From: Heterotrichella gracilis
Lineage: Eukaryota > Sar > Xanthophyceae > Tribonematales > Xanthonemataceae
Length of the DNA: 64,000 nt
Reading direction: 5' to 3'
Assembly: GCA_032358255.1 (NCBI GenBank)
Contig: JAULBX010019300.1
Location: 18,947 to 82,946, forward strand
The translations under genes and the position numbers were made by a program. The notes under the pieces are model-generated. The model worked only from the letters and a program-made list of their open reading frames with translations. It did no database searches and was not told where the DNA came from. This document shows positions 482-57,411 of the stretch, piece after piece; within the stretch, counting starts at the first letter, position 1; the number at the start of each line of letters is the position of its first letter.

Positions 482-1169
482 CTTGACATGTCCGCAATGC
501 AGTACTCCTTGTACAGGCGTGCGTAGTAGCGCCTGGCCAGCGCCACCTCCCACCTGTCGCCACCCGTGTCGTCAGTCTCCTCACGGATGAACCTGGGGCA
601 AGGGGGGGGGGGCGGGGTCAAATACATAAAACATATAGATAAATAAATTCAATGTTTACGCAGCCTGTCGTCCGTCTCCTTGCGAATGAACCTGGGGCAA
701 AGGGGGTGGGGGTGGGGGTTTCACAGGGGAGGAAACCCTTGACAAGGGTACGGAAGCACTGCCAGAGGGGGTCCAGCAGCATGCCATGGTCCATGCGAGC
801 TGTCACCTTAAGCCGTAACTTGGCAAACCCTGAAACCAAGTTTACAACCCCCAACCTGTACGTCTCCCGCAGCACATCGCGATGCACATGGCCACCTAAA
901 AGCCTACTTTCCAAAGCCTGACACCCTGACCCGCCAACCCCAAAACCCGAATCTGCCCACCCCCACCTGTAGGTATCCCGCAGCACGTCATGGTCTGTGC
1001 GGGTGGCCACCTGGTGGGTCTCAGGCAGCTTGCCCCCGTAGTATGTGATGTAGTCATGCATCAGCTGCTTGTGGCGGTCATAGGCAGACAAGCCCATGAG
1101 GTGCAAGCGCTGCTGGGCATGGCGGGCGCGGGCGTCTGCGCCCGCTTGGATGGCGCCAAACCCCGCCAT
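482..1169 (-). CDS. FRA10AC1: FRA10AC1 family protein (3'-incomplete)
   Basis: Two exons are readable on the minus strand: 1169-967 and 592-482. They join in phase (AG|G) to give DTYRFIREETDD. Exon 1 carries LSAYDRHKQLMHDYITYYGG and TDHDVLRDTYR. Exon 2 carries RRYYARLYKEYCIADMS. These are the two most conserved blocks of the FRA10AC1 family, nuclear proteins linked to the spliceosome in plants and animals. The start at 1169 is the best-placed ATG, but animal homologues have about 80 more N-terminal residues and the frame stays open upstream, so a 5' exon is possible. The donor after 482 (GTGAGG) implies further exons to the left that I cannot identify. The intron contains degenerate copies of both flanking exon edges. 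Confidence 0.8.
655..900 (-). repeat. Intronic copies of FRA10AC1 exon edges
   Basis: Within the 593-966 intron, 663-705 repeats the exon 2 acceptor and start, encoding FIRKETDD against FIREETDD. Bases 856-900 repeat the exon 1 end and donor, encoding DVLRETYR against DVLRDTYR. Bases 745-808 are a more decayed copy of the same exon 1 end. All three exon-1-type units stay in one open frame. Confidence 0.7.
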
Positions 1170-4100
1170 AGGGTTTGGGTGCGGGCGGTGGAGGTGAATG
1201 CCGGGGGAATGGGGTGGGAATGGGGGTGTGCCTGTTGAAATAGAGGGTGTGGTGGGTGTGGTGGCTGGGTCCCTTGGAGTGGGGCATTTGGTGGCAGAGA
1301 CGCGGGGAGGCGGGTGGGTGGTATGCGTAGCGGGGCTGGCGAATGCGGCTAAGCCCTGGCTTGCAATAGGTGGGGGTGCAATAATGCTTTTACTGTGTCT
1401 TGGTTGTGCAAGGCATGGGAGGCAACCACAAATGAGGTGAGGGGACGCGTGCACGCTTGGGGCGTTGCGCCTGGAGAGAGCAGCGCCTCCAAGTGGGACA
1501 GTGCCTGTGCACCGCTGGTGACTGTTCCGGAGGCGTGGTGCTGACGTTCCCAACTGTGGTATGATGGTGCAAAGCCAACTTTTTCCATGCAAAATTTCAC
1601 GTACCTGGGGTGCAGTGGTGGCTTGTAGGCACGTGTTGGCCCTCCTTTCGCGCCCTGGCCAGAACTCAGTCTTCCAGGTCCAAATACCTAGGGTGCGTTG
1701 AAACCACTTAAAGGCACAAAACTGTAATACAATAAGCCCCTAGACAAGTGAGCAACCAGCACCAGCTTGTCACTGCAAGAGGAGACAGGACTTACGGCGC
1801 AAGGTCTGGGGAGAGGCGAGGGGTATGCAGGAATTTAGTCAGTGGGTCACTTGTCGCGACCTGAACTGTGTCGCCAAGAACCACCACCTCTTCCTCGTAC
1901 AGATTTCCTGTAAACAGTAGTCCCCACGTATGGCGTTGGCGTGCTCGGTACACATCTGTCCAATGGTTTCCACAATGCATGCATATGCAACGCATGCATG
2001 TGGCAACAGGTCGTTTAAAACCTCCCTACCCGTGCCAACCAAGTCTTTCTCAGTGAAGTACTTTGCAATTAATGTGGATTTGCAGTCCAACCAGGTTCGC
2101 TTGTATTTCTCCAGCAACTGTTGCTCGTTTACGGTGCCCATACTTTGACATGCATGCATGCAGTGCACACCAAAAGAAAGGTAAGGGCGTTGATGTGGTC
2201 GGTGAAATGGGAGTTGATAGCCTAGTAATGGTAAATTCTAATAGCTGTTGCCCATTAAGTGATAGAAATAGCACTCGTGGTCCGACTCCCTCACAATGCA
2301 GCGAGTTTTCCCGCCCACATAAAACTCCGAAACCTGCTGGCACCAGTTAAGTTGACGCGGCTTGCCCTGTCACTGTCAACTTCACTATTGATGTCACCAA
2401 TGCCATTCTACCGTAGCAGGTTGAAACCAGTGAGGCCTTGCCTTTGAGAGATTTATGTGCCAGTGTGCTTAATCCCAACCTTGAGAAGTACATAGACCAC
2501 TTACGCGTGACCTTGCAACAAAACACGTTGCTTTGGCCTTCAGTTACCACAATATTATGTTTCGGAAGTTCTTGGCTGGTATTGGTGGTGTTGTGTTGTG
2601 GGCGGTCTTTGGAGATGCGCATGCACATGCAGGTCAAAGAACGTTGCTACAGGTTGGTGTCCCACCACAGGCACATACCTGCCACCACTGTATCCCTGCA
2701 CTTGTCCCTACCCCTGCACCTAACATTCGTGCACCTGCACCTGACACCTATACCAAGCCACACCCGGTGAATTGTCCAGTGCACACCTCGCCGTCTCCAC
2801 ACTGAACCTCAACCCCAACTGCATATAGGAGGAGTCTTGCAAAGACGACTTTGTGAAGGGATTGGCTGTGGGCATCGTATCAGGTATGCCAGTGTTCAGC
2901 AGCAGTGCATGCTATGCTGTGACAGTGGCTGTGGTTTTCCGTTGCCTGGGTGACTGATCTCAGCTCTGCCGGTATGCCAGGGTTTATAGGAGGAGTCGTG
3001 ATGGCTGGGGTGGGGCTTGCGTTCTGGTCCTGTTACTTCAGCAACCACTTCAATCCAGCACAGCACAGAGGCGAGCTGCACTGCCTGCGACCACCCAACA
3101 ACCCCTTGTCAGACGCGACGACTAGCAGCAGGCAAAACTCGCTAGGCAGCTTCTATTAGACGTGAAGGGTTGCAACTGCAGTGACAGCGGGCTGGTTGTT
3201 GGACAGATTGACACAATGAGTGGCCAAAGGCACTGACAACATATCTTGCCCACGCAAGGTTGTTGAGCCAGCTTGGCAAGGCAGGCAACACCAGCTGAAG
3301 AGCAAGCCATTGCCCTGGAGAAACGTCCATCCTATAGACAACTTGGGTTTGATTGGTCATCACTGGTGGGTAGCCTACCATTGCCACGGGTAGGCTATTA
3401 GTAGTCGGATACCAACAACCGGGAAGCCACTTGTGCCTTACCAAGCTGCCAGCAGTCTGAATTCAGTTGTGCTGCATTGACAACGCCTTCTGGCTGGTTT
3501 GGGTGCCCTGGAGCATCCCAGTGGCCCCTTAACTCTGCCGCTGTGCGTTCCCTTTCTTTTGAAGAAAATGCTTTCTTTCTTTAGGTGATTTAAACTCCTA
3601 GTGCTGCACTTGGAAAATGAGCAGGTGGCTGGGCTGCATGTGAGCGTGACGCACTGAAAGACGGGGCATCTATCCAACGGTGCAACGGTTGCACCTCAGG
3701 TTGCAAATCAGACTGACTCTAGTCTGAGTTGGCCTCTGTGCGTCCCCTTTCCAAAAAATCATTCTAGGTGAGCCTGGCTTCTTCTCTGAGGTGACTCAGT
3801 GACTGAGTGGACACTTCTGGCAGAGAATAAATTTACAAAGAGTAACTCTCAGCAACTTGATTCAATCAATGCAGTTTGCTGATAGGCTGCCTTACAGCAG
3901 ACCTGGTGCCGTTTGCACAAGGGGCGTACAGTATGCTCCCATCAGAATGTTGTATGACAATCACCACAGTGGAAAACTTTGAGGGCTTGGCAACTCGTAC
4001 ACCACTGAATAGTTCAACCAGTGAGTACGGTGTTCAACGAAAAGGGCTTGAATTGGCCAGTGGACAACAGCAGGTGCTATCGGTACCAGCAAGAATCATA

Positions 4101-9746: not shown

Positions 9747-9819
9747 GGGGTGGGAGCCCTTGTAGGGTCATCTTTACAGGTGGGGATGCCAATCCTGCTC
9801 CAAAGCGTAGCCTAAGCTT

Positions 9820-9824: not shown

Positions 9825-12732
9825 TTGCTTGCTGCAAGTATGTTTTACATACACTATATATCGGGGGATATTGCTATCGGCCGTGCATAAGGCCTACCGC
9901 GAGAGGTGGCACAAGGTACTGATAGGCTTGGCAGTGGTACCTTCACAAGGCGGCGCCACAGCATAGGTGCAGTAGCCTTCAGGGGTTAGCCCTACTGTCA
10001 GCCTGAGACCATCGCAGCAACCTGCATGGGGCAATGGGTGGTTGCGTTCGAGGAGCTGTAGTATTGCTGCCAGAGCCAGGCCACAGAGCAGCGTGTGCAC
10101 CGTGTAGTAGAGACCCTTCCGTCAGATCTGCATGCCTTGCGCCAACCAACCCTATCCTGGCGCTGCCCGTACCCTCTCTGCGCTGACATCGTCTGTGCTA
10201 AATTACGCAACATAAGACTGGCGTATTTGTGGATCGCATGTAGAAACCTAATCAACAAGATAACAAATTCATTGCTGAAGTTGGTTAAAAGGCCCGTTGC
10301 GTGGTTCTCATAATTTTAGAGTGCATTCCTCAAAATCTCCTTTGAGAAAGCCCTGCTGATGTGGTTCTCATAATTTTATAGTGCATTCCTCAAAATCTTA
10401 TGTACATTGCTAGATAAGTTGAGGGACACACGGGCCATTGAGGTTGAGCAGGATGCATGGGCATGGCTCAGTGAGGGGCGTGCGGCCACTGTGCAGGTCT
10501 TGCATGGCAGCATTGACCACCAGGCCAGAAGCAAGCAGCAGGAGCTTACAATGCTTGGGAGGCAGCAGTGGACTGAATTTGGCAGCTGTGCATACTGGTG
10601 GTGGTGGCTGCGTAAAGTTCAATAAATATGACACAGACAGTTAGTCCCGGGGTACCGCACATGCAGCTGCCTGGGCCTGGTCCATGTGTGCGGCAGACTG
10701 CAGAAGTGGGGTTGTCACGTGGATATGCAAGGGAGCTCCTGGCTGGTCTCCGTGCAGGCAGCGTGCGCGAGTGTGAGATGCCATTTCTTACTACTGCAGG
10801 CATGAGGAGGATTCAAGGAAGTGTACTAATGGCCAGCCTTTGATACACCCTGTGTTTGAGCGTGACGTCGTCTGGACATGGTCTGCTAGGTGTTGTTGAC
10901 ATGTCTGCTTTGTTTCTGTCAATAAGTATGCCATACGCATTGCCATATTTGCAAACGCAGTGTGTAGTTGGCTTCAAACCAAAGTGGGGCAAATGGCAAG
11001 CACAAATCGGCTTGCAATACACATGTGGCGCAGCAAGGTAGCGGTGCTCAACAGCCTGCACACTCCTCTAGTTCAAGACTCGCTGCTTGATTCAGCTGGT
11101 AGGGGACATCTTGGACAGATGGGCCAGTCCTTTCAATTTCGAAGTCGTTTCCTTTACCTGAGTTGATTATGCCTGTTCAAGAAGAGGCTGCATGATGTGT
11201 AATCGTTTAGTGCACTGATGAGCTGCTGCAGTGAGCCAATGGGATGTGACGGCTGCAACTCAATGGCATCTTAATGACGTGTGCACACCATGACGTAGGG
11301 TTGACCGCTCACGTGCGGCCATGCTACGGGGGCACTAGTGCTCGGACCGTACGCATAGTCATGTAGCCAATAAGGTGACCCCATCTGAATCATACGCATC
11401 CACTGGGGTGGTACCATTTAGCGCCATGCAAGGGCACATCGTTTGCATGCACAATATCATGTTGCTCAGATGAGGGTTGGGGACAGGACACTGCCCATGA
11501 CGTGTGCCCTGACCACCCTGATAGCTTGAATCACGACTCTGGAAATCATCCTGGGTTCTTAGAACTAGACTAGGGTAACCCTGGAACCGTTCCAGGTTTT
11601 ATCTAGTGTGCCCGAATGGCGGTAGCCCTGCACTGCCCAGCTGAGTGCACTGTCCTGACGCATTACAAGGGTGCCTCCAGATTTGAGCCATTGCCCTACC
11701 AGCGGCCTGCTGCTGCCGTTTATAATGGCACCCTTTGGCGGCCGTTGCGCCACATACCCATAACTGACAATGATGGTTTCCATGATGGCATGGCTGATGA
11801 TGCCACCGCGCAGCCAGCTAACAGGACCTTGATTGTAGTGGTGCATCTTTGTTTGACTAGGTCAGCAATTTTGGTTAGACTGTGTAGCAATTTTTGGATG
11901 TGTCAACAGTCCCTGGGACCAGGGGGGTGATCAATTGAAGGAGAAGGGGAGACAACAGTCCATGGAAATACCACCACGAAAATCGACCAGCAGCATATAG
12001 TTCGGGTTTATTTGCGCGCTGGGGCTGTAGGACTGTAGAAAAGGTGCACTTTCATGCAGCTTTCACACAGTCGAACAGCGAGTCTGGGCTGCAAAGTTTG
12101 TTTTCTTCACATATGGCTTTGCTGGGTGAGTTGGGTGCATGGTCCTGTGAGGGGTACACGCTGAAAACGTATATGCCATACGTTCAACGTTCGCCCACCA
12201 CAAAACAAGTGTTGTAAAACCTCTATACGAAGTGTATTGCCTTGTCCCTGTTAGTTTTCCCACTTTCGCACTTAACTTGATGCCAACATATCGTTTTTTA
12301 TTCACAGGAAGCAGCACAGCAGCCCACAAGCGTCAGTCGCAGCCCCGACATTCGACCCAGTTGCTGTGCAGTCAGCCAACCGCCTGGATAAACTAACTCA
12401 ATAGCAGTACGTACTGGAGCAGCTTTAAAACCACTGGTATATCCAGTGGTGCTGTCTGAGGGTAGGTGGGTACCAGGCTTTTAAGATACTTGAACACAAG
12501 GGTGGTGGCATATTCATATTCACGTTGCCCCTTCTCCAGGTCTGCTATATCAACTTCGTCATTCCTGCTGTGGCTGCTCTCATAGCTATACATCGCAGTT
12601 TCCCACGCCCTGCAAGGGCGCAGTACCAGGCGCACCCACTAAGCCCAGTCAGCACACCCCAGCCTTACAGAGTCACTGGAATTCATCACAGGGCTGCCAA
12701 AACAGCATATTAAGCATTCAGGAATCTCTAAA
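9825..12732. other. Gene-poor stretch of about 2.9 kb
   Basis: Several open stretches of 60-105 codons exist on both strands (for example 10407-10625, 11616-11930 on + and 12393-12635 on -). None shows a recognisable domain or a consistent splice model. A 60-bp-period direct repeat sits at 10301-10398. The right end carries the promoter of the carrier gene. Confidence 0.4.
10301..10398. repeat. Two-copy 60-bp tandem repeat
   Basis: GTGGTTCTCATAATTTTA and the following GTGCATTCCTCAAAATCT occur at 10301-10338 and again at 10361-10398, differing at one base in the 38-base core. The spacers between the cores are unrelated. Confidence 0.85.
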
Positions 12733-26901: not shown

Positions 26902-27483
26902 AGTGAAAGGTCACCTAGCCAGAGTACTGTAGGTACCAGGACGAACCCTGGCGAGAAACGCGCTGCAGCAGTTTTGGTGCAAGTGGGGGCGTCACCCAAA
27001 ACAGAGCTCACTACAGCTTGGCAGCCCTTTGCCGTGGTACGAAGCGATACAATCAGTGAGCAACCTAGAGCCTGCCTAGAGCAACGGTTTGCCCTATTTA
27101 GAAGATAGTCTTCTCGCGAGTTCTCGCCTATCCCGAAAGCTTTGCGGCGTAAATATTGAGGGCAAATTTTGCTTACAAACCCTAAATCCTTAACCCTAGG
27201 GTAAACTAATGGCATGCCTGTAAGTGCCACTGGTGCACGGTGCACTCGAGGCCCTTGGTTAGCTAACGTGCAGACTTCGTGGGGTTGGCTAAACGTGTTG
27301 ACTTGAGTGTTAATCATTGCTAGTGGCCGCACGCAGGTGTGTGTAGCAACCAGAGTGTGATTGCACTGGAAGCAAGGTGCTGGAAATTGATGATGATGCC
27401 TATACTTGACCAGCCGCTCTGGCTGGTGTGGTGCCCTGGTGCGAGCCAGTGGCCCCCTAACTACGCCTCTGTGCGTTCCCTTC

Positions 27484-27515
<32 letters not shown>

Positions 27516-27754
27516 TTGTTTGAATAAAAACCGCTGCGGAGTTGTCTGAAGCAAGACAGGCCTAGGCATTGCCAAGTATCTTGCAGAAGAAGAAAATAAA
27601 ATGAACGCAGTATGTGTACAATAGTTGCTGGAATCCATTTTGAAAACCATAGCAGCACAAAATTGAAGCTCGACGTGCACCACCAGCCGCAGCACTGCAC
27701 GCGTATTGCGGACCATCACCGCGACCACTGCGTACTTTGTGCTGGGGTTGTGTG
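26902..27754. other. Intergenic, with a dispersed repeat and CTTT microsatellite
   Basis: This holds the promoter of the ankyrin gene and the 3' flank of RAD1, both on (-). A telomere-like patch (CCCTAAATCCTTAACCCTAG) is near 27180. A dispersed repeat with a CTTT run lies at 27411-27535. No coding exon is supported. Confidence 0.5.
27411..27535 (+). repeat. Dispersed repeat ending in a (CTTT)n tract
   Basis: This is the longest copy of the element also seen at 3489-3583. GCTGGT, TGCCCTGGTGC, CCAGTGGCCCCCTAACT and CTGTGCGTTCCCTT come in the same order, followed by an uninterrupted (CTTT)n run at about 27483-27514. Confidence 0.65.
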
Positions 27755-34828: not shown

Positions 34829-35713
34829 AGCTCAAAGAGCACTAGTAGTACCGTATTGTTTACAATAGCATACAGTGATGCCACCGTGTTAATAGCACAG
34901 TTGCACACTGCAAAATCACTGTCACAAAGGACCACGTTGTGTCCCATGATGGACAGATGATCTCCCCGGAGCACATTTTGTCGAGGTGCACCATGCCAAA
35001 GACTTGGCTCTAAACTCGCTGCAATGATCGCATTACATCAATTGATTTAGGGCCTAGACTCCCTGGGAGGGTGGGCCACCAGTTGCCGCAAATATATATA
35101 GAGCCCCACACCCACACCCACGGCTGTGGGCTTGTTACATGTCTCATTCCATGAAAATCCTCTCAGACTAAAACAAAGCTCCATGTGCTGCAAGTCCACA
35201 GCTAAGCTACCCCCTCCCCCCTGAATGCTAAGTTGACCATCCCCACCCACCCACCCAACTCACCCCTGGCTTTGGGGTGGCAGATCCCTCAGCCAAAGCC
35301 GCAGCATGTGCTGACATGACCAACCCCCAACCTTGCGCATGGGCCATGTGGCCTGGCGCATGCGTAAATGGTTGATCCCAAGAACTATCACTGCTGTAGA
35401 ACGTGCTGAAATAGTCACCCTTGCTACGCTCCCCACCCCCGTCAACATGGCACCATTGGCCAGCTGATCCCAGTCATCACACAGGCCAATCCCAGTCAAC
35501 CTGCCGCCGCCTCAAAACTTGCAACACAACCCGCCCCCATCAGCTTGTCATCGCATGGCGCAACCCCAGCCACCATCCGCTGCCTTGATACTTGCTTGTC
35601 CAGCTGATCGCAGTCAGCGCTGGGCAACCCCAACCACCATCCACCGCCTCAGAACTTGCTTCTCCAGCTGATCCCCAGTCAGCGCTGGCCAATCCCAGCC
35701 ACCAGCCACCGCC
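34829..35713. other. Intergenic between convergent genes
   Basis: This holds the 3' flanks of the BUD23-type gene and RsfS. The right third is a degenerate 65-bp tandem array that continues into the RsfS stop codon. TTACA at about 35129 (TGTAA on -) may serve RsfS. No exon is supported. Confidence 0.45.
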
Positions 35714-35745
35714 TCAGAACTTGCTTGTCCAGCCCACCTCCTTGT
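35455..35745 (-). repeat. 65-bp tandem array including the RsfS stop codon
   Basis: Units begin at about 35590, 35654 and 35720, each with CTTGCTT(G/C)TCCAGC. The first two continue with CAGTCAGCGCTGG, CCA(C/G)CCACCGCCTCAGAA. Two or more older, decayed units extend left to about 35455. The unit's CCTCAGAA is where the RsfS stop codon lies (35714-35716). Confidence 0.8.
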
Positions 35746-37716
35746 CCTGCTTGAGGAAGGGCAGGTCAACCTCCTCTGCTGTGGCGTAGAAGCCCTCAAT
35801 GTCGTAGTACTCGCGCTGCTCCGCTGTCAGAACGTGCACAATCACGCCGCCGAAATCCAGGCACTCCCACACACCCCTGCAGAAGTGGGACAAGGCACGT
35901 GAGTGGGGCGCTGCGTGCTGTGCTGCATAGGATTGAAAAGGCGTGCGATGTGACGGGTTCCGGTTTGTGCAGATCCGTGGATGTGTGCTTGGATTGGTGT
36001 TTTTGTGCGTCGCCAAGTGTCGGGCAGGGTCACTGTGGTGGATTATGCAGCTGCAATTTACAGTGTGAGGGTGTGTGCGATGTAAGAAGCAAAGCCAGGG
36101 GTGCATCTGAAATGTCATGCAGAGGGCGGGTGTCACATCGTGCGCTGCAATGGTGCTGATCCTGGTCGTTGCCCTGCCTAAAGCATAAGCCCCGAACCAA
36201 CGCCATGCAAGCGGTGCAGCAAATTGCACTGCAGCACAGTGCTGTGCCCCACAGCCCAGTGGAATGAATTCGCAACGAACAGAAGCGTGAACTGCTAGGG
36301 TTTAGGGTTTAGGGTTTTGAGGGTGTCCCACTCACTTCCCAGGGGAGGTGCCCATGGCCGTCCTGTCCCACCGCTCCGCGGCTTCCTTGCCCATCCTGGC
36401 AAGCATGGCCAGCAGCTGGGGCCGTGAGAACACGCTGACAAACACCATGTAGCTGGTCCAGTACACCAGGGGGGCCACGTCGAGCACCATGATTTCCTCC
36501 CCTTTGGTTTCGTCAGCCACCTTGGCCAGGGCGATGGCAAACTCGCGGTCCACGTCGGGGCCGCTGTCTTCTGCGAGGGATTCTTCGTCGATGTTGAAAC
36601 GTACCGGGAGCTCCTGTGTGGGAGGGGGGTGGGGCAAGGTGAGCAGGGGGGCGCCTGCCTCCAGTTGGGGTGGGGCCATGGTGGCGGTCAGCTGTGCATA
36701 GTGGGCGCCACAGTTAAAACCACGTGCAGCTCCGCTGAATGGGCCATGCTTCTGGTTACTATGGTTTGTGTAGGTCGTAGTGTGGACGTGGGCATGAGGG
36801 CGGTGTGCGCTGAGGGGGTGAGCATGGCGTACTGGCTTAGGGTTCTGTAGGGTTGGGCTAGGGGCGTACAATCCCCTCGTCGTCGTCGTCCTCGTCAACA
36901 TACGCGGCACTCTCCACAGCTGCTGCACGCTGCTGCACCCTGCTCCACGCTCCGTGGAGGGGCTTGGGAGCACCCTGCACAATAAAACACCACTGGTGAG
37001 CCATGCCACTGGTCAGGCATGCCAAGGCATGGGAGTGCGCTGATGGGGTGCGCTGGTGCTCAGGTTGTGCAGTACCTTGCATATTCCGGTACAACCTACT
37101 ACAAAGTGACGGTCATACGTTATACGTGGATACTGATTACAGGAGGGAGCAGGCACCACGCATGCATGCATTGTTGTTACCTACCCTTTGCACCACTGAC
37201 TGGCCAGTCCATCGCCCACTTGGCCCATGCAGGAGCCTGCGACTGCTTGAGGCTGCTTGTGAGCTCCCAACTCCCCTGACTGCTGACGTATGCATTGCAA
37301 AGGTTGTGTGTTTCCACTGAGGTTATGTGGCGGTGTTGTCACCACAAGGCAACCCAGACTCCGCGAGCAACAGATAGGAGCTGACAAGCGATACCGCTTA
37401 AGTGTGTAGCCAGGGACACCTAACTAGGTTTTAGAATAAACAACTAGCAGCTCTGATAGTCCCAAAAGAGTCACGTTACCAGCAGCCGTATTGCGTGGTG
37501 CCCAGAAAAACGATGCCGGTGGCCACCGTACAGTAATGCGCACGAAGAGACAACGTGTGGAATGCAACAGCAGCGTTGAGTGAGAAAGGAAGCCAGCTTC
37601 GGTACAAACTGTCGAGAATGGAGCCATCTGTGGCTAGAAAAGTGCTGCCAGGATGCCGCCAAGTTAAAAGGTGGGCTCCACCTACAGGGGCGGCCGGTGG
37701 CCTTCAGGTTTTCCAT
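35714..37716 (-). CDS. Ribosomal silencing factor RsfS / Iojap, organellar
   Basis: Four exons on (-): 37716-37480, 36974-36870, 36613-36336 and 35876-35714. They are in phase and give 260 residues. RsfS binds uL14 on the large ribosomal subunit and blocks subunit joining; the plant form (Iojap) acts in plastids. The core runs from FAIALAKVADETKGEEIMVL through VYWTSYMVFVSVFSRPQLLA to ECLDFGGVIVHVLTAEQREY and YDIEGFYATAEEVDLPF, matching plant Iojap closely. The first exon is a Ser/Arg/His-rich presequence typical of organelle import. It is assigned from splice phase and composition, so it is less certain than the core. An acidic linker (VDEDDDDEG) precedes the domain. The stop codon lies inside a tandem repeat. 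The gene is head to head with the EGF-RING gene, 406 bp away. Confidence 0.87.
36295..36319 (-). repeat. Telomere-like run just inside a donor site
   Basis: TAGGGTTTAGGGTTTAGGG on (+) equals (CCCTAAA)n on the gene's sense strand. It starts about 17 bases after the exon 2 donor of the RsfS gene. Confidence 0.75.
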
Positions 37717-38122: not shown

Positions 38123-41100
38123 ATGCCGCCTTCAGCACGCGTTGCCTCTCTTTTTTGCTTGGTAGCTTCCCTAGCAGTGTCCAGCGTGTTGGGGGCAATT
38201 CCACAAACTCGGCCAGGAAAAGCCTGGATACCCAATACAGCTATACCAACAGGGGTTCATGGTGTTCAGTCCACGGGCCAGGCAGGCTCTGGGAACAGCT
38301 CCCAAATCTACGACACAACAGATGTTGGTAAGTGTGGGAAAACTGCATGCCACCCTGCTTGACAAACCCTGCTGCCTGCCAACCCCTCCTTATCACGGAA
38401 TTGCTCTTATCATGCTGGTGTGCTTTCAACAGGTGATACAGGTTTGGTGCAACTGCGGTTGTGCGAGTGTGAGAGGGGGAACGGCCCTCCCAACGGCCTC
38501 TCCTGCGACAAGGAGGGCTGGTTTGTATCTTCCTTCGAGTATGTGGGCTCCTGGGTAAGACATCTATCGCTTCTGACACTCCCTGTCCTTGCTGTTGCTA
38601 TGGTGGCACCTCTAGCCCCTCATTTTTCTAACAGCACGTTGACTGCCCTTTGTTGCTTTGCAGCTGACAGGAGGGGGATTGGTCCCCTTGTCCCACGCCA
38701 TTTGCTGCCGCCCCTGCTTGCCAGCCGAGCTCCCACCCCCACTGGCAGAGGTTGTGGGCGCAGATAACAAGCCCATAGCGCTGCTCAGCTACGGCTGCCA
38801 CCCATCCATAAACCCACTGCCCCAAAAGCTGCACTGCGAGTTTTCAGGGGGCAACATGGTCCAAGGGTTTTCAGACGCGCTGGCGGTCAGCGCAACCCTG
38901 GACAAGTACTATCCAGTGGAGGCGGTGGACTGCTGCACGCCATCCCTGCTGCTTGCTTCCGGCGATGCGGTACAGCTGGAGCGGTGCGACTGCGTGATGT
39001 CCAGGGATGTCAACTGCGGGGGCACCAGCACGCACCGCGTCCTGTATGGCTTCAGCCAGTTCAGGTAGGGAGGCACTCTAGGAGGATCTTTACACCCCTT
39101 GTACGTACATTGCTTATCCAAGTAAACCTGGTTGCAGCACCAGCTGCTGCAGGCCCCTTCCTTGAGTCCGATAATTCAACTGGTGTCGTATTGTTTGTTT
39201 AGGGTCGGCCGGGGCGGTTCCCTGGTGCCTGTGGCTCCAGCCCAGTGTTGCAAGATCTGCCTTCCCCCAAAGCTGCCCCCTGTGCAAACCTGCCTGGGCC
39301 TGAACAACTGCCACGGCAACGGCTACTGCCACATGGGCGATTGCCAGTGCTTTGATGGCTGGCTGGGCTCGGACTGCTCGCAGAAGGTAGGGTTTAGGGT
39401 TCAGGGTTGGAACCACAGGTTTAGGGTTTAGGGCCTGACACTAGTGCATGATTGGAGGAGACGCAGTGGAGTACTGCACCGCCGCGAAATGCCGCACCTT
39501 GCATTGTCCCCCGGCCAAATTCCACTATGTTTGCCGATTAGTCACCATGCGTCGCCTCAAGCCTGTGGGTAGTTTAGATGTATGTGGTCCAACAGTACAG
39601 CCAGATATCGGTCAGTCTGCACAGCTTGCATACCTGCTCTGCGTTGGGCAGGCCGTACACCATGTATAACCGTAAAACAACTACATCCTTAGCAGCATGT
39701 GAGATCACCATTGCCAGCGGCACCCACTCCTCGCTGTGTGTGTGCCAGGATGGCGGCGGCAACGACACCCTTCCCCAGTGGCTGCTGTCCCTCATCATCC
39801 TGGCATCAACCGCCACGCTCTGCCTGCTGCTGTTCATCGTTGGGCGGATCATGCGCATCTACCGCGACAACATCATAGGTAAGAGCATGCGCAGCCTGCA
39901 GCGCACCTCTTTATGCCTGGGCGGTCATGGCAGCAGGGCCTGTCAGTGGAGGCAATGGGGTCAGTTGCGGGCAGGAGGCGTCCAATCCTCTTGGGAAGCC
40001 TCACCACATTTGTCTTGCAGGGTGTGGTTGACAACATGCGATGCGGATGCAAAATACCGCTGTGGGCAAACATGCTTGTTCTGAAGAGTGCATGGACCCA
40101 CCTGCATGCGCTTTGCACCCACCTAGTACTTCCGCATGCGGCCGCAATCATGCTTGCAATAAGGGCGCTCATGCTTTCCATGGTACCATACCTCTGCATT
40201 TGTTTTAATTGCTAGTGGTTGGTCTTTGCCTGCTGATCGTGTGTTGGTTTGCCTTTGTTTCAGCTGACAACGAGGGCCAGCAGCTGACTGAGCCGCTGCT
40301 GCTGCGGATTGACGGTGACGAGGGCAGTGTGGGTAGCGAGGACACGACTGATGATGAAGATGAATGCAATGCGGATGATGAGCCGGCAGGTGAGGCCCTC
40401 CTGTGGTCAAGTCCAGGATCACATGTGCTTCTAAATGTACCATTGCAAATGCGAGTACAATTCAGAAGAGCAGGAAAGGTTATATAAATTAATCTATATG
40501 CAAAATGGCAATGACGTGTGTTACACATGCCCTGTGTACTGTATGGAGTCTTGCTGCTGGATTCATCTGCATGCATTGCTCATATGCCAATTTGTCAAGA
40601 TGCACCCACACCCACATCGCCAAGGAGTGCCGCCGTATGGATACTCATAGCACATGGCACCTGATTGCACTTGCGCCAAAACACGCCGCCCAAAGTCACA
40701 CTCAGAGCTGCTGGAGGAAGGCCAGTATGTGGGCTGTGGATGCACAAGTCCATCATGCATGCCCCACGCTTACCATTCTATCTGGTAAGGTGGCTGACTC
40801 CCTGGTCGCTGGTGCAGGGTTACAATATGAGATGCCTCGGCGGGGCCCTACCCTGAGCCCACCCAATGCAGAGGCTGCTGTTGCTCCAGGGCCAGGCGGT
40901 GCTGCTGTGGTGGAGGGGACGGTGCGGCATGGGGTGGCGTATCAGGAGGTGCGCTAAGCCGGTCGCCTGCTTGTTGCTGTGAAATTGGCGCTGATGGATT
41001 CTGCACCATGCTATGTTTCCACCACCTTGAAAAGAAAGGAAAGCAAATCAAGGACACGAATAATGTGGCACAGCATGTATGCACAGCCCCATTACCACCC

Positions 41101-45372: not shown

Positions 45373-47983
45373 ATGGCTCAACCTGGGGACACAGCAACAG
45401 CGCCACTGTTGGAGGTCCCGAGCCCTTCACCTCGCCGTCTATCACACTTTGTTTTGGGTGCGTGGCAGATTGGCTGTGTGTGTTTTTCAGGCCTTCCACC
45501 TGCACATGGCTCCACGTGACTGATGCGTTTTTGTATTTGCTGTCTGGTGCAGACCTAGGGCCAAGAAACAACTCTTGCTTCTTGTCTGAGGGCTTGCAAA
45601 GGTCCGAGGAAAAGCACAACACGGTAAGAACGGCCGTGCGCCCAGACAGCACTTACTGGAGTGTTGCAACCACCCCCTGGCTGTGGGTGAAAAGTTCACA
45701 CTGTGAACTGGTATACCTTTGCCATACAGGTGCAAAGGAAGCTGATTTTTGCGCTGGGGCTATGTTTCGTATTCATGATCGTGGAGGTGGTGGGAGGTTT
45801 TATTGCGCACAGCCTGGCCATCATGGCTGATGCGGCGCACCTCTTGGCTGATGTCAGCGGCTTTGCTGTCTCTGTCTTCGCTGGGTTGTATGCCGCGAAG
45901 AAGAGCCATAATTCTTTTTCATACGGGTAAGTCTCTGCAATGGCCACCTGCTAAAACTATCACACCAGTTCAGCGTTGCTCCACCATGTTGGGGGCCGTC
46001 ATATTGGTGTGACTACTACTGCAGGTATCACCGGGTGGAAGTTCTTGGGGCGCTTGCATCGGTGCTCACGGTGTGGCTGGTAACTGGTGTGCTGGTGTTT
46101 GAGGCAGTGGATAGAGTGATGTCACCAGTATATGTCAACGGCAAAGGTGCGTTGCACGCCCATCCCTACACTCATCCCAAACTCACGCTGCTAGTGCCTT
46201 GTATTACGTTGAAGCAGACTTAATTTCCTGTATGCCTGCTGTGCACTGTGTTCATACAGCAGCTGGCTGCACACTGCTAACGGGCCATATTGGTGCATGG
46301 CACACTGGCGGGGCATATTTGACGCGTGGCAAACCAGTGGGGTGCGGCCCGATCATGGGCCTTTGTCCTGGCGGCTTACAGTGTCCCTGGTGTGCAGTGA
46401 TGACCATCCTGGGCCTGGCAGCTGTGGGCGTGAACGTGGTCCTCTTCTTCACCCTGGGCCACCACGGGCACAGCCACGGGGGGCACGGCCACGAGGAGGG
46501 CGCCAGCCCCTGCACCTCAGCGCTGGCCATCGCGGCGCCTGAACCAGACACCTCCTCCCACTCCTCAAAGAGCGGCCACGACCACAGCCACGGCGCACAC
46601 GGCCACAGCCACGACCACCCGGCGCACAGCCACGATGCAGAGTGTGGCCACAGCCACAGCCACAGCCACGGGCATGGGCACAGCGATGCGGCTGCCGGGA
46701 TCAGCGCGAGTGCGGAGGGTGTTGTCGCGACCCCCAACGGTCACAGCCATGCAGGGGGGGAAGGGCACAGCCACGACTACGGGGAAGGACACAGTCACAG
46801 CCATGGGCATGAGCATGGTCACGGGCATGGTGGGCATGGGCACGACCACAATATGAACCTGCAGGGCGCGGTGCTGCACGTGATTGGCGACCTGGTGCAG
46901 AGCATGGGGGTGGTGGTGGCGGGCCTGCTCATCTGGTGGAACCAGGTGCGCCTGCTGGGCCAGTGTGCTCACTACTGGGCAATGCTCATTTGAAGTTAGT
47001 GTGCACATGTCTGGGCAATAATTGCACCAATGCAGCCATGTGCATCACATGCAATGCGAGGAGGAGTTATCCTGCATTCCTGGGCCCTGCGATGGTGCTG
47101 CTCCCATTCCCCTCCCTGCTCACACACATGCAGGATGACTCCTGCTCGCATTTTGCTGACTGCGCATGTGCCTCCCCTAACCTCTTAACCCCAAATTCTA
47201 AACTGTTGACTCTACCTTGCATCCGCAGGACGACCCCCGCTGGTACATTGCCGACCCCATCTGCACCTTCTTCTTTGCGGTGCTGGTCATGTACACCACC
47301 ACCGCCATCCTGCGGGACATCTCAGACGTGCTCATGGAGCGCGCGCCGCGGCATGTGGACCCTGAGGCGATTGCGGCCGACATGGTCAAGGTGGGTGCGC
47401 CAGGGGGGCCATGGTGGAAGTGGTGGGGGGTGGGGTGATCATGATTGGGTGGGGGATGCCGCGAGTTGCGTGCCCAAGGGGAGCCATGGTGGGAATGTGT
47501 GGCTGTGCATGTGCTGCTGATTGGTCTGGTGGTGGCATGGATGGCGGGCATGGTAGCGGCTGTCTACGTCATTGGATGTGGATGCCTTGTGGCTGGAGTC
47601 CTCCCTGCATTGTGCACAAATTAACAACTCTTAAAATTTAAATGAAAACATTTGTTTAATTGTTCAAAAGAAAATTGATCTTCAACAATGCCAAGAGTAT
47701 AACTAAGCTGTGTGTGCAGATCGAGGGAGTGACTGGGCTGCACGACCTGCACGTGTGGTCCCTCACCCCAGGCATCCCCCTCCTGGCGGCGCACGTCAAC
47801 ATCTCCACCGATGCGGATGCCACAGCGGTGCTGTCTAGCCTCACCCGCTACACGCGCAAGCTGGGCATCACGCACACCACCTTCCAGCTGGTGGCGGCTG
47901 GCAACCACTGCCCCTGCCCCTGCGTCACCTCGCCTGGGGGGGAGGTGCGGTGCCCGCCGGCACCTGACAGTGGGAGCCATTGA
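45373..47983 (+). CDS. Zinc transporter, cation diffusion facilitator (ZnT/MTP1-like)
   Basis: Seven exons: 45373-45457, 45553-45623, 45730-45926, 46025-46146, 46398-46945, 47229-47390 and 47720-47983. They are in phase and give 482 residues. CDF proteins exchange Zn2+ for protons and fill vesicles or the vacuole. Helix 2 holds MADAAHLLAD (His89, Asp93) and helix 5 holds HVIGDLVQ (His319, Asp323), the HD-HD zinc site of the ZnT/MTP1 group. Between helices 4 and 5 is a loop of roughly 135 residues with about 36 His (repeats of GHSH, HGHGH).  The C-terminal cytosolic domain has GLHDLHVWSLTPG and ends in a Cys-rich tail (NHCPCPCV). The N-terminus has FLSEGLQRSEEKHNT before helix 1, where plant MTP1 also has a conserved Cys. 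The first two small exons are supported by phase and by the family start. A TGTAA lies at 48598, about 0.6 kb past the stop. Confidence 0.94.
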
Positions 47984-50678: not shown

Positions 50679-51322
50679 CGCGCTCCTTGCCTTGGGGTGG
50701 GACAGTGACATTTTACTACGACTCACTGGCTGTGTTGAACTTTGTCACAGTTCCAGCTCCTGTTGGTTTGTACCAAGGTGTCGTTTCATCAACTTGATGC
50801 ACAGTGCTCCACCTGGTTCATTTTGCGTGGCCGTGTGCGTTCTTGTCAACAAACTGAGTGCTTGCTCCCGTGGCTGGAGGTGTAACAAGTGCTGCACGTT
50901 GTTGCCACCAACACAAAATCAAGGAATGTGCATTGGAGGCAGAGTACTGCTGGCAGAATCAGTGACTGCCACCCAGCGCTGCAGCCCGGCTGGGCCATGG
51001 CCTCGTGCCTAGTAGGGTGCTTGGAGGGTGCAGCTCAAACCCCAAATTGGGGTTTTCCTGCCGGCCCAAGTGTTGCAACGCATGCGTGTGGAACGTTTGC
51101 AAGGAATCAGCGTATAGAAGCGAGAACATTCTCGACTCTATGAGCACTGTACACTAAAGGCAAAGCCTTGCGCGCCTGTTGGTGGCCGAACAGCAACCAG
51201 GCCACGGTAACCACCTCATCGTGATAAACAAAGCAAGTACCCTCGGGTTTGCGTTCGCCTAGGACAACCCACAAACTCTCGTAAGGCTCTTGTTTGGCCA
51301 AAGCCTGTAGGGTGCTGCCAAG
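50679..51322. other. Intergenic, upstream of PEX5
   Basis: 644 bp hold the 3' flank of the augmin-like gene, with TGTAA at 50881-50885, and the PEX5 promoter. No exon is supported. Confidence 0.45.
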
Positions 51323-54300
51323 ATGGCCCTCCGGGACTTTGTCACTGGCAGCGACTCCTGCACCGTGCCAGACGGGGCTGGCCCCTCCAATGCAGCTGCC
51401 AGCTTCGCAAACGCGTTGTTGGGACAGAGCTCCAAAACCCACGACCGACTAAAGGAGGTAAGGACACCACTCGTATCATGTTTCTCGCATGACCTGGGGT
51501 ACTGGACGGTGATAAACCTGCTTGTCACACCCACAATGTAGCTCCCTAGAATGTTTCTGAGCTGTGTCGTGTGCTGCCCCGCTTTCCCCAGCTGCCTGGA
51601 TACCGGGCCGGGCCATCTATCAGCGCATCAACTCCGTTACAGCCACAGAGTATCGAGGAAGCTGCACATGCCGCAATCCACGGTGGGTTCTGCGTTTTGG
51701 TATATGCATGCATAATGGGTACTGTCACCCCCACTTCTTGCTTTGTCAAAAGCACTTTAGATACCCTTGTTGCTTGCACAATGTGGTATAGGGTTACACC
51801 GCGTGGCGTCGTGTTCACATATACAGGATACCGCAATGTGGGTATCGCTTCTGCTCAGCAATGACAGGAGGCGACACTCCCCATTGCTTGCTTGTACTTG
51901 CCGTAAGCTCTGCTGAATGTACCAGTCTAATTAGGCAAGGCAGGACGCACTTGTCATCTACTGGCAAACGCACCACAGGTAGGCTGGCTGCAGTCCTCAA
52001 AACCCTAAACCCTATGCACCGCAGGCGAGCTCCCTGCTATCCCGGGGCTGCACCCCAGCAGCAGCGCCGCAGCGGATGTGCAGGACTTTCTCCACAGCTT
52101 GGATGCACCACACGCCGCGCCCTTTGCGGAGTTTGATGCTATCTACAACCAGGGCCAGCGAGGCATGCCTGGTGGCCCGCCGCACATGCCGCAGGGGGGG
52201 GTGCCACTGGCACCGTTCTTGCATGTAAGTGCCTTCCCTTGGTACTTGGTATGGTTTCCCATAAGCACGCATGGAATGCACAATGAGATGGGGACAGGCG
52301 CATCTTATCTGCACACCAGTACCCTCCCATGTGTATACCCATGTCTCGTCCCGCTGCTGTTACAAGTGCTCAGGGCACATATTGCTTCAAGGAATTGTCT
52401 CCTCCTCTAGTGAAATATATTACTCAAGTGCATTCCAGCAATACAGCCAAATCGGCAAGGAAAGGGGTTGGGGTGCACTGCGCGGGAGCAGTGACAGCCA
52501 GAGCGACAGCAACAAAATTTTACAACCAAATAGGCCCATGTGTCCCTTCCATCCTTTGCATCCCGTGCCTTGCCACCCATGCATTCCCGTCACCCTTTCT
52601 CCCTCCCTCCCTTCAGGCCTTCCTCAACAGCGGCGCGTCACGTGCCCAGTTTATGCCCCTCCCGATGCCACCTGTCGAGCTGTCAGTGGCCGACAAGTGT
52701 CGCATCAGGGACCGAGGCACGATCATGGCGCGGCACCTGTATGCGGACCAGGGGAACGAGTTTGCAGATCAACAGGTGGGGAGTTTTGGTTTTAAAAATA
52801 GCCGGTTTCCGACACACCCAATTTTCCTTTGGGATTTGTTTCCTGTTCTTATTCGTATAAATATTGCAGAGTGACTGTGACGGTGGTTTAGTCCCTGTCA
52901 GAAAAATTAAAAAAATATATTACAGGTACCGACCGCCAGCCCACCTGTCCTTTGGCTGATGCGCCCCCCCATCTGGTGCTTGGCTGCTTGCATTTGTGAA
53001 ACTTTGTAAAAGTAGTTTCGATGAACTGGCTAATGGTTTGCCAGGTGGCGCGTCTCGTCAAAAGGGTGTACAATATAAAATCTATAAACTAGTCAATCTG
53101 AAAAACTATTATTTACACTTTTTCCATGATATCCCCTGTTATGCCAGGTGGCGCGGCTCCTGGACTCTCTGCGCATTAATGCAGCGGAGCTGCCTGCCAG
53201 GGCGGAGGCGCAATGGGAGGGGCTGTACGCAAATGCCAGTCGGGCGGGGGAACCAATGGTGGCGCAGGACGTGGCGGCAGGTACGGTTTGGTGCACGCGG
53301 GAAACCCTAGTAGGGTCTGGATTGCACTGGATGAAACCCTGCCTGGGCAGCATTCTAACTGCACACAGCTGCACGCAGGCACAGGCACATACCTGCCCCG
53401 CTGTGATTTTGCATGCGTAAAGAGAGCGAATGTGTATCACCCTGTCCCGCACACTCCCCACCGCGCATTGCATTGCATGTATCACCGCTCGCCCCTCCCC
53501 TTCCCAACTCGCCTTGGGGCCTATTCACAGCTGCCACAGGTGCCCATGCCACCTTGGGCGCTCATGCATGCGTGCATTGCACCCCTCCCTGCACCATCAT
53601 CGCCCACTCAATTCTGTACGCAGCGTTGTCCCACCGTGCGGGTTACAGATACAATCCCAATACAATGTACAACTGCAGGCGCCGCAGCCGCGCACGCCGC
53701 TCCTGGGTCCTGGGCCAATGAATTCTCTCGCATGTCGCTGCATAACCAGGCGGGGCCTCAGGGGTGGGCAGGGGAGTTCCAGCAACAGCAGCAGCGGCAG
53801 CAGCCAGGTGGCGCGTGGGCGGAGGAGTTCCAGCAGCGGAATGGTGCGGGGTGTTTGCTTGGGGAGGGTCCGAGGATTCGTTGGTGTGATGAGGACTTGG
53901 TGGGGGGCATAGGACTGGTATCAAGTTTTTGGAAAGAATGTGGCGATATGATGCGGTGTTTAAGGGCTGAGGGGCAAGGGCGACTGCGCATCCGGCCATA
54001 CTGCTGGGGGAGCAAAGACTGCGCAAAGAATTGACAACCATTTTTCCTTTCCCAGGGTGGGCGGAGGAGTTCCAAGCCACCCAATCCACCTCAGCCGCTG
54101 CACGCGACACCCAGCTGTCCAATGCGGCAGCGCTAGCCCAAACCCACCAGCTGGTGGAGACCCTGAGCGCCAACAAGGACCCCAAATTCCAGAGCTCGAA
54201 TTTCCTCAAATTCCTGTCCAAGATGTCCCGGGGGGAGCTCATACTCGAGAACAACGGGGTGTCAAGCAGCACCGCGCGGCAGTGGGTGGATGAGTTTGGG

Positions 54301-57268
54301 CAGGCGGGGCCCAGCACAAGCACAAGCGCAGCGGCGGAGGGGGGGTGGGCAGGGGAGTACATGGCCGAGGCAAAAGGTGGGGTCCCCCGTTGGCATGCCC
54401 GATCGGGGAATGGGGTCTTAAAGGCTTTTTTAATTTTATCTGACTTGGTTGGTGATTTGTACACCGGTGTGTGTAATGGTGGCCTTGCACATGTGTATAT
54501 GCATCGATACATCACAACCCGCGGAAAAGGATCAATGATAAAAAGCTCAATGTGTGCACGGCCACCCACCTTGCGCCTGCCTCCCCGGGTAAGCACAATT
54601 ACAGCCGTGATCGCTACCTTAATCCACAATCGCAATGCACATGCCCCCCACCTCGTCTGGCTTTTGTGCCGGAACACTCGTGATGGTAAAAATAATAATA
54701 AATAAATAAATAAGAATAACAACAACATGCCTCCTGCAGGCAACTCTTCTTGGGTTGAGGAGTTCTCCGACCACTTTGCCGACGGCCTGGGTGCGGAGTG
54801 GGAGCAGGAGTACTTTGGCGACATGGAGCGGGCAGCCGCGCTGCTGTCTGGAGAGCACGGCGAGTACCGCTTTGCACCCAACAACCCCTTCCTCACTGAC
54901 CTGGCCAGCGTGGAGAAGGGCAAGGAGCTGTTCAAGTCGGTGAGGGCAAGGAAATACTCTTAGCCCTAAAACCCTAAACCCTAAACTCCATCCTCACTGA
55001 CGTGGCCAGCGTGGAGAAGGGCAAGGAGCTGTTCAAGTCGGTGAGGGCAAAGAAAACCCTAATTCCCATGTACGAAGTCCTGGCTAGGAGTGGGCTTGGG
55101 TGGGTACTACAGTGGGCTTGATCATCGCTGTGAATACCTTTTTTTGGGACAGCAGTGTTGAGCGCTGTGCAAAGGTGTACTAATGCAACCATGGGGTAGC
55201 CACCCCTAACCTCTTAACACACCAACACAGCCATATACCCCCCCATGTCCAACCCACCCACCCACCCCCTCACCCTTGATCCCTCTGATCCCTCCCAGGG
55301 CCGCCTTTGAGGCCGAGGCGCAGCGCCAGCTCGGCAACGTCGAGGCCTGGCGCCTGCTGGGCACCGTGCACGCCGAGTCTCTAAATCCAAATCCTTCATG
55401 GATTGCAGATTCAGCATCCTTAGTGATTTTTGTAATTCCTTCACAAACCCTGAATCATAAACCAAAACTTGCTACCCACCCTCCCAGGGTCTTCTCTCCG
55501 AGGCCGTCCTCGCCTTCGAAGCGGAAGCCCAGCGCCAGCCCGGCAACGTCGAGGCCTGGCGCCTGCTGGGCACGGTGCATGCCGAGAACGACGACGACGC
55601 CACCGCCATCGCCGCCATGTCGCGCGCGCTGGCGGCCGCGCCCGACCACCTGGACGTCATGCTGGCGCTGGGTGTGAGCCACACGAATGAGCTTGACCAG
55701 GGCGAGGCGCTGCGCTACCTGCACGGCTGGCTGGCCATGCACCCCTCCTTCAGCCAGGTGGGGGGTGGTGGTGGGGAGGGGGGAGGCAGGCTGAGGTCAA
55801 GGCGCTATCACCATGCATGCATGCCAACGCCGGTCCTTCTCAGTACCAGATTCTATCATTATTATTGTTATTATTATTAAATATTGAATCATGCAGATAG
55901 TTAGATTTCCTGTTGTCTGGTACATGCAGGTATGTTGTTGGGGCTCAAAGCTGTGTGCATGCGACACCACGCTCCATACAGTGCTGCACCCCACCCTCCT
56001 TCAAGTTTTCACCCCACCCACCCCCCACCGCCGCAGATTGCCAAGGAGAGCCCCGGACCCCCCGACTCCAGCCAGCGCCTGTCTTGGGTGATCGGCCTGT
56101 TTGAGAAGGGCGCGCGCAGCATGCCGGGTGACGCTGACATCCACACCGCGCTGGGCGTGCTGTACAACCTTGCCAGGCACTACGAGGGGGCCGTGGGGGC
56201 ATTCAGGGCGGCGCTGCAGATACGGCCGCAGGACTACTCGTTATGGAACAAGCTGGGTGCGTGCGGGGGTGAATTGCATGGGAGGGCGGGGAAGATCAAT
56301 GCCGCATCATCCTGTGTTGCTGGCATATGGTAGTGGCAATGCCACTGGGTGACCACAGGGGTCAATTTTCTACCCTGCCGCAGCGCCGGGCACTGCACCG
56401 CATCCAATGGGATTCACCATCCAGGGTTTCTCTAGCCGCCCACCCCCCGGTTATCTTGCCCCACAAGCGTTTTCCATGCAATTCCGTCCCTGCCCACTCC
56501 CCAACTGCACCTTCACTGCCCAAACCCTGCTCCCCGTATCCCTCCGACGCTGTGTACCCTTGGCCAACCCCTCCCCCATGTCTTTCAGCCTTCCTCCTCC
56601 CGCCTATCATGCACCCCTTGCTTCACCTGCCCTCCAACCACTCCCACCCCCTCCCCCACAGGCGCCACCCTTGCCAACTCCTCCCACTCCTCCGAGGCCA
56701 TCTCTGCCTACCAGAAGGCGCTGGACCTCAAGCCAAACTACATGCGCGCCTGGACAAACATGGTGCGGGGGCATGTGGGTGTGGGTGTGGGCGTGTGTGT
56801 GCGGAAGGGTACTGAATTCATGTGCACCATGGCATTGAGGGCGTGCTCAGGCCAAACCTCACCACACACCCTAAATCCTAAATATAAACCCTAAACGGGG
56901 CACCTGCGGCCGTACCTCACCACAAACCCTTGACCTCAGTCCTCGTCGCCTACCACCCACACCACCACCCTGGCCCTACCCATCCCACCCACTCAAAAGA
57001 TATTCCATGCCACCTGCACCAACGTACCTTCACCAAAGGCCCCACCCCCACCCCCCACCCCCCACCACAGGGCATCAGCCAGGCCAACACCGGCAACTAC
57101 GACGCCAGCTGTCGCTACTACGTGCGCGCGCTGCAGCTCAACCCGCGTGCAGCTGCTGTGTGGGGATACCTGCGCACCAGCCTGTCATGTGCAGGCAGGT
57201 TGGAGCTTCTGGGGGCGGTGGAGGAGGCGGACCTGGGCAGGCTGCTGCAGGAGATGCCGCTGGCGTGA
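51323..57268 (+). CDS. PEX5: Peroxisomal targeting signal receptor PEX5
   Basis: Twelve exons: 51323-51457, 51592-51682, 52025-52224, 52617-52775, 53148-53280, 53679-53843, 54056-54376, 54740-54939, 55488-55757, 56037-56256, 56662-56762 and 57071-57268. They are in phase and give 730 residues, the length of plant PEX5. It binds PTS1 cargo in the cytosol and delivers it to the peroxisome. The start MALRDFVTGSDSCTVP matches plant PEX5 and holds the N-terminal Cys used for ubiquitin-dependent recycling. Eight WxxxF/Y motifs for PEX14/PEX13 follow (WANEF, WAGEF, WAEEF twice, WVDEF, WAGEY, WVEEF, WEQEY). Exons 9-12 hold the TPR domain (EAWRLLGTVHAENDDDATAI, HTALGVLYNLARHYEGAVGA, GNYDASCRYYVRALQLNP). 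Four exon edges have duplicate copies in adjacent introns or the 3' flank, and introns carry telomere-like runs. Confidence 0.96.
53037..53060 (+). repeat. Decayed copy of the PEX5 exon 5 acceptor and start
   Basis: TTGCCAGGTGGCGCGTCTCGT at 53038-53058 resembles the true exon 5 junction TATGCCAGGTGGCGCGGCTCCT starting at 53140, 104 bases downstream. Confidence 0.55.
54689..54728. repeat. A/T-rich microsatellite before PEX5 exon 8
   Basis: An AATA/AAT/AAC-type run (AATAATAATAAATAAATAAA...) ends 12 bases before the exon 8 acceptor. Confidence 0.8.
54890..55054 (+). repeat. Tandem copy of the PEX5 exon 8 end with telomere-like spacer
   Basis: The exon 8 end plus donor (54890-54953) recurs at 54991-55054, 101 bases on, with only two or three differences over about 64 bases. 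Between them lies CCCTAAAACCCTAAACCC (54964-54981). Confidence 0.92.
55290..55585 (+). repeat. Upstream copy of the start of PEX5 exon 9
   Basis: Bases 55290-55376 repeat 55480-55582, including the acceptor CCTCCCAG|GG. The copy lacks about 16 bases near the start. Over 25 aligned codons seven differences are silent and one replaces Pro with Leu. Confidence 0.9.
55853..55880. repeat. (ATT)n microsatellite
   Basis: TCATTATTATTGTTATTATT-type run inside PEX5 intron 9. Confidence 0.8.
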
Positions 57269-57411
57269 GGGGAAGACCCTTAGCTGGGGTAAAGGAACCA
57301 GAGAGTGAAGGGGACCCTACCCAACAGGCTGCTGCAGGGGATGTCGGTGGCGTGAGGGGAAACCCTTAGGTGGGGTATGGGAACCAGAGAGCAAGGGAGA
57401 CCCTACCAACA
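57240..57411 (+). repeat. 87-bp tandem duplication over the PEX5 stop codon
   Basis: 57240-57326 (end of exon 12, stop and 3' flank) is followed directly by a second copy at 57327-57411. GGCTGCTGCAGG, TGGCGTGAGGGGAA, CCCTTAG, GAACCAGAGAG and GACCCTACC recur in order. The second copy has the equivalent TGA. Confidence 0.92.

Follow-up and report, generated by a model that had tools for sequence, protein, structure and literature searches.

Do the partial copies of exon ends that lie beside several genes of an alga record a recurring process of local duplication and, if so, what kind of process? The question is raised by a 64-kb window (the whole stretch analysed here, positions 18,947 to 82,946 of contig JAULBX010019300.1 in the Heterotrichella gracilis assembly GCA_032358255.1). 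A preliminary description had reported that in three of its genes, FRA10AC1, RsfS and PEX5, short segments straddling an exon boundary or a stop codon reappear in the neighbouring intron or 3′ flank. We found these copies to be present, on the same strand as their sources and at spacings of 64–258 bp, and we found further, weak ones in a zinc-transporter gene (Table 1). In our view, with a probability of roughly 0.72, they stem from independent, recurrent tandem duplications of about 65–260 bp, which would arise through end-joining of staggered breaks and persist where the spare copy is intron or 3′ flank.

The local character of the repeats is evident from counts of ungapped segment pairs (+1/−1 scoring, score at least 19), made after masking low complexity at 60150–60320, 61350–62460, 46430–46850 and 27470–27530, which removed 40 segments at a score of at least 17 and a spacing of at most 300. 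Same-strand pairs numbered 10 at 20–100 bp and 6 at 100–300 bp, and inverted pairs 1 and 0, so that between 20 and 300 bp adjacent copies in the same orientation exceed inverted ones by 16 to 1, as expected of small tandem duplications. In the four bins beyond 300 bp the counts were 0, 1, 1 and 1 for the same strand and likewise 0, 1, 1 and 1 for inverted pairs (one offset in four was sampled in the last two bins). An unmasked BLAST self-comparison (up to 2 kb, at least 36 bits) gave 11 same-strand pairs, two of them low-complexity, against one inverted pair. Identity at the edge copies is graded, from 94% down to 68%, as separate events of different age would be expected to leave it. The earlier suggestion of a recurring local duplication process is thus borne out by graded divergence, several loci and clear controls. 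The spare copies lie consistently on the non-coding side: those of donor edges downstream of the donor, those of acceptor edges upstream of the acceptor, and those of stop regions in the 3′ flank.

Table 1. Copies of exon ends and stop regions in the window, together with source exons and a spacer
Feature	Positions	Strand	Match or basis
FRA10AC1 exon 2, original of the head and tail copies	482–592	−	gene model; Pfam Fra10Ac1
FRA10AC1 exon 1, original of the tail copies	967–1169	−	gene model
Copy of FRA10AC1 exon 2 head, C-rich tract and CAG, intron 1	666–716	−	vs 567–617, 84% over 51 bp, spacing 99; acceptor-edge p 8e-9
FRA10AC1 exon 1 tail with intron 1 start, copy 1	806–878	−	vs 917–989, 68% over 73 bp, spacing 111; donor-edge p 9e-9
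FRA10AC1 exon 1 tail, copy 2 (further decayed)	772–808	−	vs 976–1012, 76% over 37 bp, spacing 204
FRA10AC1 exon 2 tail with donor region, copy in intron 2, GT lost	189–254	−	vs 447–512, 70% over 66 bp, spacing 258
FRA10AC1 exon 2 donor edge, degenerate copy in intron 2	85–131	−	27-bp core 81% identical to 462–488
Tandem sister of the 85–131 copy (FRA10AC1 exon 2 donor edge)	2–48	−	83% over 47 bp, spacing 83
RsfS stop-codon array, 64–65 bp unit, about 3 clear copies and 1 older	35456–35733	−	first unit contains RsfS last codons and stop
Zinc-transporter exon 2 head, weak copy in intron 1	47127–47171	+	acceptor-edge p 5e-4
Zinc-transporter exon 2 donor edge, weak copy in intron 2	47464–47497	+	79% over 34 bp, spacing 75; donor-edge test not below 0.001
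Short copy of PEX5 exon 5 head and CAG, intron 4	53034–53056	+	vs 53137–53159, 87% over 23 bp, spacing 103; acceptor-edge p 5e-5
PEX5 exon 8 tail and donor (source)	54883–54954	+	gene model, alignment
Spacer (29 bp) between PEX5 exon 8 copies, CCCTAAA telomere-type repeats	54955–54983	+	sequence; motif cluster 54968–54988
PEX5 exon 8 tail, copy whose donor is identical (decoy at 55041)	54984–55055	+	94% over 72 bp, spacing 101; donor-edge p below rounding
Copy of PEX5 exon 9 head after CAG, frame broken, no end donor	55302–55377	+	vs 55511–55586, 89% over 76 bp, spacing 209; acceptor-edge p 2.5e-4
Tandem copy of PEX5 stop region	57325–57412	+	vs 57238–57327, 87% over 90 bp, spacing 87

The preliminary description had proposed self-aligning exon edges and exon centres with their flanking introns, and within the window, on 17 gene models, this comparison favours the edges. 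We compared 50 exon bases plus 8 intron bases of each edge with the edge's own intron (132 edges, 66 introns; shuffle-based p-values), with three controls: reverse-complemented edges, edges set against another intron, and exon centres. Both stop arrays and the FRA10AC1 intron 2 copies (2–254) stand outside this test. At p<0.001, 6/132 edges matched, compared with 0/132 reverse-complemented edges, 0/132 edges against another intron and 0/67 centres. The six are both edges of FRA10AC1 intron 1, both edges of PEX5 intron 8, and the acceptors of PEX5 intron 4 and zinc-transporter intron 1. Relaxing the threshold to p<0.01 again gave 6/132 edges, with 1/132 for each of the first two controls and 3/67 for centres, two of the latter in matching introns; at p<0.05 the counts became 14/132, 11/132, 4/132 and 6/67. 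Since weaker cut-offs bring the controls close, the signal is confined to the extremes. It does not hinge on shuffling: when introns were simply ranked, the own intron topped all 65 others for the same 6/132 edges and for 2/132 reversed ones, about 2 being expected by chance. The six edges score 16–56 against means of 8.1–8.7, and the best score among the next six by z-score is 14.

The intronic parts taken alone gave p 0.0027 for PEX5 exon 8, 0.018 for FRA10AC1 exon 2, 0.033 for FRA10AC1 exon 1 and 0.049 for PEX5 exon 9. They are thus related at PEX5 exon 8 and weakly so at the three others, and the duplicated unit may cross the junction there. Two introns contain copies of both their edges. 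One is FRA10AC1 intron 1; in the other, PEX5 intron 8, the exon 8 tail is followed by its copy, then by the copy of the exon 9 head and lastly by exon 9 itself. Frames, splice signals and junction sequences, here and below, were read directly from the DNA letters. The PEX5 exon 8 copy has no acceptor, the exon 9 copy has lost a net 20 nt at its start, and copy 1 of FRA10AC1 exon 1 measures 40 nt from AG to GT and is out of frame. Tandem exon duplication would yield complete exons, in frame and flanked by both splice sites, and no copy in the window is of that kind. In the RsfS array the segments are 82–91% alike, apart from the older, gapped one at 72%.

The most likely course of events, which we infer from this arrangement, would begin with two close nicks on opposite strands, giving a break with long overhangs. 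If both overhangs were filled in and then joined, the segment between the nicks would be doubled. Selection would be expected to purge most duplications lying wholly within exons, whereas a duplication over an exon end or a stop could be tolerated, with the outer copy still serving as exon and the spare copy placed outside the reading frame. In the intron or 3′ flank that spare copy would then decay. Such break repair would fit the unit sizes and the mostly two-copy loci better than slippage does. Duplications produced by end-joining of staggered breaks sometimes carry extra sequence at the joint, and the 29-bp spacer between the PEX5 exon 8 copies, with its telomere-type repeats, could be likened to such filler DNA; it is the only telomere-type cluster in the window that marks a duplication joint.

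Several observations weigh against this reading. In three pairs, chosen post hoc (PEX5 exon 9 head, FRA10AC1 exon 2 head and FRA10AC1 exon 1 copy 1), 13/15 differences fall at third codon positions, which would be unusual if the copy were non-coding and decaying. Across the eight tabulated pairs the differences by codon position are 13, 9 and 21, so that third positions account for 21/43 (p 0.025 against one third); the other five pairs contribute 8/28. Copies of both edges within each of two introns would seldom be expected from independent rare events. The PEX5 exon 5 copy rests on 23 bp, and its intronic part alone is at chance level (p 0.32). Slippage or unequal exchange is also compatible with the data. 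Moreover, repeats occur at exon edges more often than purging selection predicts. We simulated, under assumptions of our own, duplications with exon-internal ones purged, a lower rate of decay in the exon copy and a detection bias; purging and detection together predict 22–23% of repeat clusters at edges. At the simulation's 10-base margin the observed share, with the PEX5 motif cluster dropped, is 9/15 (p 0.0016). Because 9/15 stands against about 22% simulated, an excess remains beyond simple selection, for which breaks near splice-proximal G- or C-rich tracts may be a source.

This excess raises the alternative that duplication is targeted to exon ends by transcription- or splice-linked breaks, for example in G-rich sequence after donors and C-rich sequence before acceptors, and that introns accrete their own ends. 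Apart from the simulation, an argument for it is that 8/16 repeat clusters (score at least 17, spacing at most 300, low complexity masked) contain a splice border or a stop, compared with 3.6 by rotation over the gene map (p 0.015). The rotation p-value ranged from 0.008 to 0.044 over four score cut-offs and four margins, and from 0.017 to 0.051 in a separate run at the strictest margin. The count itself depends on the margin: 6/16 with 8 bases inside, 8/16 with 0, and 10/16 with 10 outside, the last also admitting a repeat that lies 3 bases from another stop, as well as the PEX5 motif cluster. PEX5 exon 9 is counted as an edge at no margin, its match touching the edge only when gapped. With the PEX5 motif cluster dropped, the comparison becomes 8/15 against 3.4 (p 0.012). 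That both edges are copied in two of the four matching introns also fits targeting, as do runs of at least five G or C in all three FRA10AC1 pairs examined. No such run, however, is present in the examined PEX5 segments (the exon 5 copy, the exon 8 and exon 9 pairs and the stop), and the six matching edges sit in only four introns, the other 62/66 being blank at p<0.001. FRA10AC1 accounts for four of the clusters and PEX5 intron 8 for two; merging these by hand leaves 6/12 (p about 0.03), or 6/11 without the motif cluster (p 0.019). Since the hypothesis was drawn from the same window, all these p-values are flattering. We accordingly regard a bias of duplications toward exon edges as likely but unproven, a genome-wide habit as unproven from 64 kb, and targeting to exon ends as rather unlikely; it is also doubtful that introns lengthen from both sides by accreting splice borders, with near-equal decoys being ignored by virtue of their position. 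As to the edge copies described earlier, they are real, with three qualifications: the PEX5 exon 5 copy amounts to only 23 bp, 8/16 repeat clusters lack any exon edge, and an 18-bp match encoding WAEEFQ (53815/54057) was rejected as an edge relic, being a repeated PEX5 peptide motif.

Three other explanations can be set against independent duplication by break repair. If the assembler had laid two diverged haplotypes in series, the third-position differences of the three pairs would resemble allelic coding divergence, and copies would appear at exon/intron borders, where exons collapse but introns do not. Yet there are more than two copies at the RsfS array and at the tails of FRA10AC1 exons 1 and 2, the identities are graded, the alignments contain indels, and the window has no N. 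The PEX5 exon 9 copy is out of frame and without a donor, and the nested order of donor, donor copy, acceptor copy and acceptor is unlike two introns in series. Nor did we find in the window what a false duplication should leave, namely two equally diverged copies with both coding frames intact, and we consider such an artefact highly improbable. The copies might instead be functional, as alternative splice sites or as poison exons that regulate their genes through decay of mis-spliced RNA. In 4/7 comparisons the decoy splice site scores within 3 units of the real one. The values for real site and copy are 4.44/4.44 for the PEX5 exon 8 donor and 8.19/7.30 for the PEX5 exon 9 acceptor, scores that depend partly on training because PEX5 was in the training set, and 9.38/8.49 for the FRA10AC1 exon 2 acceptor and 8.31/5.44 for the FRA10AC1 exon 1 donor. 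Using the PEX5 exon 8 or exon 9 decoy would also lead to an early stop. However, 3/7 decoys are clearly weaker (−0.40 against 5.97 for the PEX5 exon 5 acceptor, and 3.45 and 3.59 for the two donor copies of FRA10AC1 exon 2, whose real donor scores 7.52), none of the copies is a whole exon in frame, and decay reaches 68% identity, so a function appears very unlikely. The preliminary description had offered slippage and repair, which are compatible with the data, and also a process making new introns by duplication of AGGT sites, which fared poorly. AG|GT does occur at 8/66 spliced junctions, including FRA10AC1 intron 1 and PEX5 intron 4. Across the 66 introns, though, the in-register identity of donor and acceptor flanks is 8.00/32, compared with 8.10 ± 0.30 for mismatched introns, the maximum flank match is 12 against a mean maximum of 14.3, and the copies lie within existing introns or past stops. 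This explanation is extremely improbable.

The duplication process proposed here is already known in kind. Small tandem duplications as a mutation class are well known from mammals and land plants, and studies of nick pairs in plants and of insertions in rice reportedly describe the same class. According to PMC8355091, fill-in of 3′ overhangs by CST-Pol alpha yields small tandem duplications in mammalian cells. These resemble the copies in our window in being direct, adjacent and tens to hundreds of bases long; the differences are that our case is reconstructed from old, decayed copies, shows an apparent preference for exon ends and involves no induced break. Intron gain by regional tandem duplication likewise involves splice signals, but there the duplication falls within a coding exon and yields a new intron with matching flanks, whereas here the ends of existing introns are copied and the flanks are unmatched. 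Minisatellites are tandem arrays whose units span tens of bases, and the RsfS array, with about four copies of 64–65 bp, is one; several other loci here, in contrast, have two copies, some with a spacer. In the open-licence literature surveyed by title, exon-edge tandem copies are not described as a habit of green algae.

Should the bias toward edges prove genome-wide, it would provide a simple route for intron growth and would supply duplicated splice sites as raw material for alternative splicing, along with near-identical pairs of real and decoy sites for studying the choices of the spliceosome. If it does not, the window remains a record of small tandem duplications in an alga.

The gene models behind these comparisons comprise 17 genes with 66 introns, 18,354 exon bases and 18,810 intron bases. 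Their codon and splice parameters came from training on PEX5 plus segments of three further genes, followed by self-training on a run with fused genes; of two settings the first was kept, and genes scoring above 10 were taken. The borders of PEX5 were drawn by eye, and the start of its exon 2 (51643) was set by hand, the modelled protein being 2 residues short there. The model of FRA10AC1 exon 2 overran to a false stop at 478, and we placed the donor at 481 by inspection. Among the five window proteins scanned, Pfam assigns FRA10AC1 (Fra10Ac1, E-value 1.2e-13), RsfS (1.1e-18), a cation-efflux zinc transporter and the 20-kDa subunit of complex I. The top structure match of the last is 7arc, which we take to be from the green alga Polytomella. 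For the PEX5 gene, PEX5 structures are among the best matches, ranked under one engineered TPR protein. Its exons 6–8 (53679–54939) encode eight W-x-x-x-F/Y motifs, counted on the modelled protein and presumably PEX5 docking motifs; the WAEEFQ repeat is among them. In a search for relatives among viral contigs, the PEX5 protein pattern gave 4 matches, of which 0 were confirmed, and a 23-base exon 9 pattern gave none. The 64-kb window contains no tRNA and no Rfam match at the gathering score.

Two other repeats deserve mention. A direct repeat at 10301–10398 (38 bp, 97% identical, spacing 60), away from any predicted exon, is a young duplication outside exon edges. A dispersed repeat of 58 bp (3502–3559 and 27430–27487, same strand, 84% identical, 24 kb apart), whose second copy enters a CTTT microsatellite, is possibly a short mobile element.

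The telomere-type sequence of the PEX5 spacer belongs to a wider set. The window contains eight (CCCTAAA)n clusters (12 bases, one mismatch), compared with 0–2 in five resampled controls. Those in predicted introns lie at 25090, 36295–36319, 39387–39408, 39417–39434, 51998, 54968 and 56868, and one lies outside, at 27177. Five of the seven intronic clusters are C-rich on the sense strand, and the two G-rich ones share one weakly supported gene model. Plants have short interstitial telomere motifs, or telo boxes, which have been proposed to originate at free DNA ends (PMC3022908). CCCTAAA-type units lie within genes in both cases; in Arabidopsis and rice, however, they peak in 5′ untranslated regions and are slightly below expectation in introns, according to PMC3022908, whereas here 7/8 fall in predicted introns (29% of the window).

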